From Lachnospiraceae bacterium (GTDB lineage: Bacteria > Bacillota > Clostridia > Oscillospirales > CAG-272), in the NCBI GenBank assembly GCA_024404495.1, contig JAKSPT010000007.1, positions 1 through 64,000 of the forward strand: a stretch of DNA of 64,000 nt. The letters are read 5' to 3'. The translations under genes and the position numbers were made by a program. The notes below the pieces were generated by a model. That model was not told the origin of the DNA. It ran no database searches and was given only the letters and a program-made list of their open reading frames with translations. Shown piece after piece: positions 56,160-58,004 of this stretch. How positions within the stretch are numbered: the first letter of the stretch is position 1; every line of letters begins with the position of its first letter.

Positions 56160-56771
56160 TTACGCTTTTTTCGCTTTGAGAAAATCTCTGATCTTTCCTG
56201 CGACCGCGTCGGCGAGCGCGCAGTACCCGATCGGGGAATAATGTAGCCCGTCGCCCGAAAGACCGTCTTCCTTCAGCCCCGCGCTGACCGTAAAGAGGTC
56301 GTTCAGGGGCAGGTTCAGGTTTTCCGCGATGCGGTCAACGGCGGCGTTCAGCTTCGGGAGCTGATTTTTCCAGTTTTCCGCCCAGATCATCGTTTTCGGT
56401 TGATAGGCGATCGTGCTGTTGGCGAGGATGATGCGGTCGGTGCCGATGCGGCGGAGCAGCTCCTCGGTCTTGGACTGATACAGCCCGATATCCTTCATGT
56501 GTCCGCAGTGCAGACCGTGATTGAAGTGGATGACGTCGTATTTGTTCTCTCTTACCATCATCATCACGAGGCGGTGGTAGATCGGCATATCGACCGAGTA
56601 GGCGACGGCAAGATAATCGACGTAGCATTCACCGTTCAGCCGTTCGGCTACGGCACGGAAATAACCGTCGGTGATCGAATCGCCGACAAGCAGTACGCGG
56701 GGCAGATCGTGCTTTTCGGTCTCCACGCTCATGAATTTTACCCATTCCACGGTTTCTCTTTTGACGCGCAT
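56160..56771 (-). CDS. SGNH/GDSL-family hydrolase
   Basis: A 203-residue cytoplasmic esterase-type hydrolase. Block I is VLLVGDSITDGYF with nucleophile Ser32, and block III is FNHGLHCGHM with the oxyanion Asn. Block V is SGDGLHYSPIGYCAL with catalytic Asp174 and His177. No signal peptide is present. AAAGGAG precedes the ATG by eight bases. Such enzymes remove acyl groups from sugars, including acetylated xylan or mucin glycans. The substrate is unknown. It has its own promoter. Confidence 0.9.
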   Translation of the reverse strand: MRVKRETVEWVKFMSVETEKHDLPRVLLVGDSITDGYFRAVAERLNGECYVDYLAVAYSVDMPIYHRLVMMMVRENKYDVIHFNHGLHCGHMKDIGLYQSKTEELLRRIGTDRIILANSTIAYQPKTMIWAENWKNQLPKLNAAVDRIAENLNLPLNDLFTVSAGLKEDGLSGDGLHYSPIGYCALADAVAGKIRDFLKAKKA

Positions 56772-56822
56772 TTTCGTATCTCCTTTTTGCGCGGACAGCC
56801 GCGCAGTATTCTGTTCCTTTCC

Positions 56823-56851
56823 ATCATACCACGGAATCGTTCGGGAATCAA
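56823..56851 (-). promoter_or_regulatory. Promoter of the SGNH hydrolase gene
   Basis: Minus strand TTGATT (56846-56851), 17-bp spacer, TATGAT (56823-56828). Confidence 0.7.
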
Positions 56852-56870
56852 CCCCCGTTTTCGTTTTTTG

Positions 56871-56898
56871 TTAACAAATAAATTCGTTGTGTTATAAT
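56871..56898 (+). promoter_or_regulatory. Promoter of the structured RNA unit
   Basis: TTAACA (56871-56876), 16-bp spacer, TATAAT (56893-56898), followed by GAAAT. Confidence 0.75.
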
Positions 56899-56904
56899 GA
56901 AATA

Positions 56905-57035
56905 AAAAACGGAGGAAAACGGTATTCCAACCATTTCAAGCGGGATCCTCGGAGATTCCAATATTAACAATCTTCATCCGATCGGTGAGGCGGATATGAA
57001 CCGGAACCCGCTCACGATCCCGCGAGCGGGTTTTT
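56905..57035 (+). ncRNA. Candidate structured RNA: orphan small RNA or cis-regulatory leader
   Basis: About 130 bases between a good promoter and an intrinsic terminator, with no convincing ORF (the only frame after the GGAGG would need an ATT start). Stems are GGAGATT/AATCTTC (56951-56957 with 56969-56975), ATCCG/CGGAT (56976-56980 with 56991-56995) and GCGGGATC (56940-56947) complementary over eight bases to GATCCCGC in the terminator loop (57016-57023). That last pairing would compete with or lock the terminator, as in attenuators and riboswitches. The alpha/beta-hydrolase gene begins 115 bp downstream. No known RNA family is recognised. Confidence 0.5.
57006..57035 (+). terminator. Terminator of the structured RNA unit
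   Basis: ACCCGCTC (57006-57013) pairs with GAGCGGGT (57024-57031), followed by TTTTT. The 10-base loop ACGATCCCGC is complementary to 56940-56947 upstream. Confidence 0.85.
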
Positions 57036-57149
57036 CAGACCCGTTTCGACAAAAAACGTGGGTAAGCCGTTTCTTTTTCGGAGTATAATAATAATAACAA
57101 ATGGTATCGTGCATAACTGTACGGTACGGAAAAATTGGGGGAAAGAACA

Positions 57150-58004
57150 ATGAGCGAAGCAGAAAAGACCACGGAAACCGAAGTTACTTCTTCTCCGGCA
57201 GAGGAAGCTGCTCCCGTGGAAGAAAAAACCGCCGAGACCGCAGTCAAACCGAAGAAGAAAAAGGGCAAGATCATTCTTTGCGTGATCCTGATCGTTCTTG
57301 CTTTGATCGTCGTCGGCATCGGCATTGCGATCGCATCCGTTATGCTTACCAAGCGTCCCGCTGCCAAGACCGCTGAAGAATATGCGGCAGGTTATCAGGG
57401 TGCCGTGATCACCGTTACCGATAACGGTTCGGTCGAGATCAAGCCCGGTACCGGCGTTGAGGACCGCAAGACCGGTATCATCTTCTACGTCGGCGCGGAG
57501 ATCGAACCCGAAGCGTACATCCCGCTTCTTGCGCCTCTTTCGGAACAGGGCTATTCCTGCTTCATTCCGAAGATGCCCGGCAACGTCGCTACCTTCAAGG
57601 CAGGCGAGGCAGGCAAGATCATTGACGCGAACACCGGAATCGGAACCTGGTATCTCGCCGGTCACTCGCTCGGCGGCTTTACCGCAGCCGGCTACGCGAA
57701 GGATCATACCGACAAGATCAAGGGTCTGATCTTCATCGCGGCTTACGCCGGAACCGATATCAGCGGCACGGATCTGAAGCTGCTCTCCATCTACGGAGAT
57801 ACCGATACCGTTCTGAACAAGGAAAGATACAACGCGGCGCTTTCCTGGAATCCCGCTTCGTTTGAGGAGCACATCATCGCGGGCGGCAACCACGCTCAGT
57901 TCGGTGATTACGGCGAGCAGCCCGGTGATACCGCGGCTACCATTTCCGCCGAGGATCAGCGCGCGCAGGCAGTTGCCTTCATCCTTACCTGGCTGGCGGC
58001 ATAA
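57150..58004 (+). CDS. Membrane-anchored alpha/beta hydrolase
   Basis: A 284-residue protein. An acidic Glu/Thr-rich cytoplasmic tail (1-32), a Lys cluster and one membrane helix (about 41-65) precede an extracytoplasmic hydrolase domain. The nucleophile is Ser173 in LAGHSLGGFTA, the acid is in SIYGDTDTVL and the His in GGNHAQFGDYG. The domain matches the carboxylesterase-type (DUF-annotated) alpha/beta hydrolases of Gram-positives. The start at 57150 has GGGGGAAAG before it. The TTG at 57135 does not. Upstream, TATAAT at 57084 has only a poor -35, so read-through from the structured RNA unit may contribute. Codon use resembles the CBM9-like gene, suggesting good expression. Confidence 0.82.
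   Translation: MSEAEKTTETEVTSSPAEEAAPVEEKTAETAVKPKKKKGKIILCVILIVLALIVVGIGIAIASVMLTKRPAAKTAEEYAAGYQGAVITVTDNGSVEIKPGTGVEDRKTGIIFYVGAEIEPEAYIPLLAPLSEQGYSCFIPKMPGNVATFKAGEAGKIIDANTGIGTWYLAGHSLGGFTAAGYAKDHTDKIKGLIFIAAYAGTDISGTDLKLLSIYGDTDTVLNKERYNAALSWNPASFEEHIIAGGNHAQFGDYGEQPGDTAATISAEDQRAQAVAFILTWLAA

Follow-up and report, generated by a model that had tools for sequence, protein, structure and literature searches.

A short transcription unit that looks more like the transcript of a headless or lost gene than a new regulatory RNA

Does an intergenic segment that combines a promoter, RNA stems and a terminator, and that harbors no credible open reading frame (ORF), encode a new regulatory RNA? 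This question is raised by one intergenic region of the window, that is, of the whole 64,000-nt stretch of DNA that was analyzed. According to a preliminary description, the region contains either a stand-alone small RNA or a leader that controls the downstream hydrolase gene through a terminator. A promoter, stems and a terminator can occur together with no ORF and still not define a new class of RNA, and in this case the comparison of the 5′ end of the unit with the ordinary gene starts of the clade revealed an mRNA head without a start codon. We therefore consider which reading of the unit is best supported, and the features on which the argument depends are collected in Table 1.

Table 1. 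Coordinates of the unit and of its surroundings in the window.
Feature	Position	Strand	Details
SGNH/GDSL-type hydrolase gene	56160-56771	-	
Intergenic region	56772-57149		378 nt, between the minus-strand SGNH/GDSL-type hydrolase gene and the plus-strand alpha/beta hydrolase gene
Sigma-70-type promoter	56871-56898	+	TTAACA-16-TATAAT (-10 = TGTTATAAT), extended -10 TG, 11/12 consensus positions
Family mRNA-start cassette	56890-56926	+	TGTTATAATGAAATAAAAAACGGAGGAAAACGGTATT; -10 box, A-rich start region, Shine-Dalgarno GGAGG 56911-56915, ATT 56924-56926
Open frame from ATT	56924-57088	+	54 codons, stop TAA 57086-57088, runs through the terminator
8-mer	56940-56947	+	GCGGGATC, exact complement of terminator hairpin 57016-57023
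Intrinsic terminator	57005-57036	+	9-bp stem, A/C mismatch, two C-G pairs, tetraloop, then TTTTTC
Probable -10 box of the hydrolase's own promoter	57084-57089	+	TATAAT, recognizable -35 absent; from sequence
10-bp hairpin (imperfect palindrome), hydrolase leader	57104-57127	+	GUAUCGUGCA-UAAC-UGUACGGUAC, -12.9 kcal/mol
Membrane-anchored alpha/beta hydrolase gene (Abhydrolase_5)	57150-58004	+	PF12695, E 2e-47; membrane anchor read from sequence

The transcription unit and its locus

The TTAACA-16-TATAAT promoter of the preliminary description is present, and it is accompanied by the TG of an extended -10 element. A promoter matching 11 of the 12 consensus positions is expected 0.002 times per shuffled copy of the 378-nt intergenic region, and only 12 such sites occur in the 64 kb on both strands, several of which are located 53-85 nt ahead of gene starts. 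At the other end of the unit, the stem and the T-run of the terminator were confirmed, and the stem (57005-57013/57024-57032) has a free energy of about -18 to -20 kcal/mol and a pair probability of ~0.9; the hairpin is better represented by the structure in Table 1 than by an open loop of 10 nt. These consensus signals support the view that the segment is a self-contained transcription unit extending from promoter to terminator. A pattern search of 59 genomes for a recurrent terminator of this type returned scattered chance matches, and this idea was dropped.

The alpha/beta hydrolase gene begins 115 bp downstream of the terminator, as had been stated. The palindrome in its leader (in DNA, GTATCGTGCA-TAAC-TGTACGGTAC) lies between the TATAAT of the hydrolase and its Shine-Dalgarno site and could be an operator or an mRNA-stabilizing leader hairpin. 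On the other side of the unit, the gene for the SGNH-type hydrolase is matched in its own genome by a paralogue with 63% identity (G000:C1:14418-15023), which is located in a sugar operon beside genes that resemble, from their sequences, a cupin-type isomerase and an alpha-mannosidase. A second copy of the unit beside this paralogue on contig 1 was considered and rejected because the upstream neighbor there is a different operon, and BLAST found no other copy of the unit in this genome. The relatives of the alpha/beta hydrolase within the family are ~40% identical and none is syntenic; the neighboring exonuclease has relatives in 46 genomes that are only ~30% identical, and a syntenic locus was not identified among the family relatives through either gene.

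The 5′ end compared with the gene starts of the family

The 5′ end of the unit, TATAATGAAATAAAAAACGGAGGAAAACGGTAT, corresponds to the mRNA-start cassette that is standard in the bacterial family, in which a -10 box is followed by an A-rich start, a Shine-Dalgarno site and a start codon. The preliminary description overlooked both the consensus GGAGG, which lies ~6 nt past the presumed transcription start and 8 nt before ATT, and the cassette itself. When 171 nt (56890-57060) were used as a BLAST query against 295 family genomes, 16 other places matched, all within the first 39 nt, and an order-level search added two. At each of the 18 matching loci in other genomes (18/18), the ATG or GTG of a long ORF occurs within a few bases, and the matches to these mRNA starts extend over 26-37 nt of the 5′ end, with identities of up to 26/26. 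The closeness of the likeness can be seen at locus L012, which reads CGGAGGAAAACGGTATGCC where the window reads CGGAGGAAAACGGTATTCC. The two have CGGAGGAAAACGGTAT in common, and the next letter is G in L012 and T in the window; ATT sits exactly at the position of the ATG of L012, and of the ATG of a further locus, L003.

The same arrangement was sought within the genome itself. The pattern TATAAT-N8-16-GGAGG occurs 37 times at 35 distinct sites, compared with 6 occurrences of a reversed control pattern. Among the other 34 sites, 27 are noncoding and are closely followed by a start codon, and the remaining seven, which are start-less, lie inside long open frames. The unit is therefore the sole noncoding site of this pattern in the genome without a canonical start codon, and ATT occupies the expected distance. 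Because a family-wide cassette of protein-gene starts forms its 5′ end, the unit points to an mRNA head. The DNA and these comparisons show four properties of the unit: its promoter, its terminator, the cassette and the lack of a canonical start.

Very short leaders, in which TATAAT, an A-rich start and GGAGG are packed into ~20-25 nt, are frequent at gene starts in the family and throughout this genome. At one further site (L140, G000:C18:18247-18266), the cassette runs directly into GGTACCGCACGATGGTGCGGTACC, which forms a nearly perfect hairpin. A frame of 42 residues has its start codon within this hairpin, which is possibly a structured start site.

The promoter and Shine-Dalgarno arrangement of the protein genes of the clade is present, and a canonical start at the proper distance from the Shine-Dalgarno site is absent. 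We accordingly favor, with a rough probability of 0.45, the reading that the unit is a short, terminated, start-less mRNA head whose RNA has no selected function. RNA polymerase would start at about position 56905 from the strong promoter and would produce a transcript of ~130 nt, which would carry a Shine-Dalgarno site followed by ATT in place of a start codon, and transcription would stop at the terminator (57005-57036). The unit would most likely be the remnant of a decayed small gene or of a gene from which the body and the start codon have been lost, and transcription of the downstream hydrolase would probably depend on the gene's own -10 box (57084) or on rare read-through. Actual transcription, a history of gene loss and the absence of function are what we infer here. 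What argues against a relic is that the promoter and the terminator are intact, since such signals would not be kept long under neutral decay. The codon score of the frame that begins at ATT, intermediate between coding and noncoding values, also counts against this reading. No gene that could have been the parent of such a relic came to light: the peptide search returned none, a candidate from the XRE class of regulators failed at the protein level, and the genus is represented by one genome.

RNA structure, translation and the competing explanations

A stand-alone, lineage-specific small RNA of ~130 nt, which would act in trans and might have been recruited from an old mRNA head, is the first alternative, and we regard it as rather unlikely. 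It would account for a complete promoter-to-terminator unit of typical small RNA length, with intact signals and no credible canonical ORF. However, the consensus Shine-Dalgarno site right at the 5′ end is mRNA-like, and the fold is near the chance level: the 138-nt RNA has a folding energy of -40.0 kcal/mol compared with a shuffle mean of -35.8 kcal/mol (z = -1.16), and 28 of 200 shuffles were equally good. Of the three stems, the terminator alone is well defined, and the two upstream stems, which had been described as good, have pair probabilities of only about 0.24-0.41. The preliminary description recognized no known RNA class in the unit and proposed a search with Rfam models; this search, at the gathering threshold and at E values up to 10, likewise returned chance matches only and no aptamer or leader family. 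No homologous RNA was found by BLAST in 295 family genomes or by a covariance model based on this single sequence in 275 family genomes, among which the genus is a single genome; the absence of homologues is compatible with a lineage-specific small RNA. The foreign matches of the model were one terminator look-alike in genome G189 and, in genome G095, the end region of an XRE gene. Phages, plasmids and viral contigs contained no homologue of the unit or of its peptide, and a literature search for small RNAs derived from decayed genes returned nothing useful. The proposal of a structured regulatory RNA, whether small RNA, riboswitch or attenuator, is therefore left unsupported by the fold, by Rfam and by the ~275-295 family genomes.

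The second form of that proposal, an attenuator or riboswitch in the leader of the hydrolase gene, supposes that most transcripts end at the terminator and that a signal allows read-through into the gene at 57150. We consider this improbable. The terminator is positioned upstream of a gene whose own promoter has no -35 box, and the exact complementarity of the 8-mer to the terminator hairpin was confirmed. Moreover, an alternative fold, which contains the 8-mer helix and no terminator, costs only 1.6 kcal/mol (-38.4 vs. -40.0 kcal/mol). Nevertheless, an 8-mer match arises in 3.3% of dinucleotide shuffles when only the loop is considered and in 7.1% when the whole terminator is considered, before any correction for post-hoc choice, and the helix between 8-mer and loop has an ensemble probability of 0.07, so that mutually exclusive pairing does not exceed chance. 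The fold and the 8-mer pairing are both at or near the chance level and not clearly better. In addition, a consistent upstream terminator was absent from 29 hydrolase homologues of the family, which are ~40% identical and not syntenic, a conserved aptamer is absent, Rfam gave no match, and the hydrolase has a TATAAT and a leader hairpin of its own.

Translation of a mini-ORF from the non-canonical AUU, at low efficiency, is an alternative in which we place similarly little confidence. Genes that start with AUU or AUA, such as S. aureus cvfC1, ccpN and infC, are documented in Firmicutes, among them AUU starts that follow strong Shine-Dalgarno sites; the 61-aa protein of cvfC1 is produced from AUU with ~10% of the efficiency of AUG (PMC13009471). 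Because such starts exist in Firmicutes, weak translation of the unit is a live rival, and the AUU is properly spaced, at the place where L012 and L003 have ATG. The codon score of the ATT frame is also the best of the six frames. This score lies between coding and noncoding values and gives no separation from intergenic controls. The frame meets no stop before it crosses the terminator, and a frame fixed at this position stays equally open in 29% of shuffles. The 54-aa peptide has no relatives in the 295 family genomes, and the Shine-Dalgarno site is a plain GGAGG, whereas the documented cases have extended sites. The frame is probably not a gene.

The XRE gene end among the matches of the covariance model suggests a further explanation, according to which the unit would preserve, as a relic, the 3′ end of a gene for a small XRE-type helix-turn-helix regulator, followed by its terminator. 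The match is the best foreign match of the model (E 3e-5, in genome G095), and it covers the 3′ end of the XRE gene together with the terminator; identity to an orthologue extends to 29 of 33 nt, with a score of 46, whereas shuffles reached at most 35. Within the family the gene is common, but this genome lacks a close orthologue. The regulator itself (L209:1403-1615, L237-L259) is ~70 aa long and mostly 80-89% identical across ~20 family genomes. At the protein level, however, the XRE profile gives the frame in the window -1.0 bits, which is below the score of many shuffled peptides, and Pfam gives no match. The 33 nt of the match are rich in purines, the Shine-Dalgarno cassette already accounts for them, and the search spanned hundreds of genomes. 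We regard this lead as false and the explanation as a minor rival, very unlikely to be correct.

A still less likely alternative is initiation-gated attenuation, in which a ribosome that initiated at the weak AUU and translated the frame through the terminator hairpin would melt it, and transcription would then continue into the hydrolase gene. The correct spacing of the AUU and a frame without stops across the terminator would permit this, and, if it were true, expression of the hydrolase would report the stringency of start-codon selection (IF3 activity). If the AUU or the RNA were functional, the unit would act as a small regulatory element for an uncharacterized membrane-anchored hydrolase. 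On the whole, the start-less mRNA head is the reading that we prefer, and the unit looks more like the transcript of a headless or lost gene than like a new regulatory RNA.

Comparison with known systems

Each of these readings has a counterpart among known systems. As in the intergenic promoter-terminator small RNAs of bacteria, the unit has its own promoter, a length of ~130 nt and a Rho-independent terminator; it differs from them in having no homologue, no structure beyond chance and a Shine-Dalgarno site at the 5′ end. With transcription attenuators and riboswitch leaders it shares the placement of a terminator ahead of a gene and the possibility of alternative pairing, but it contains neither a conserved aptamer nor a leader peptide stop, its pairing is near chance, and the gene probably has a -10 box of its own. 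In cvfC1, ccpN and infC (PMC13009471), a Shine-Dalgarno site is properly spaced before a non-canonical start, as it is here, whereas the site in the unit is plain and not extended, the frame crosses the terminator and conservation is not seen. The ordinary mRNA-start cassettes of the family (extended -10, short A-rich leader, Shine-Dalgarno site and ATG) are the remaining counterpart. Although no ATG, GTG or TTG follows the Shine-Dalgarno site of the unit and a terminator occurs within ~110 nt, the order and the spacing of its elements are identical to those of the cassettes, and the letters are nearly so over 26-37 nt.
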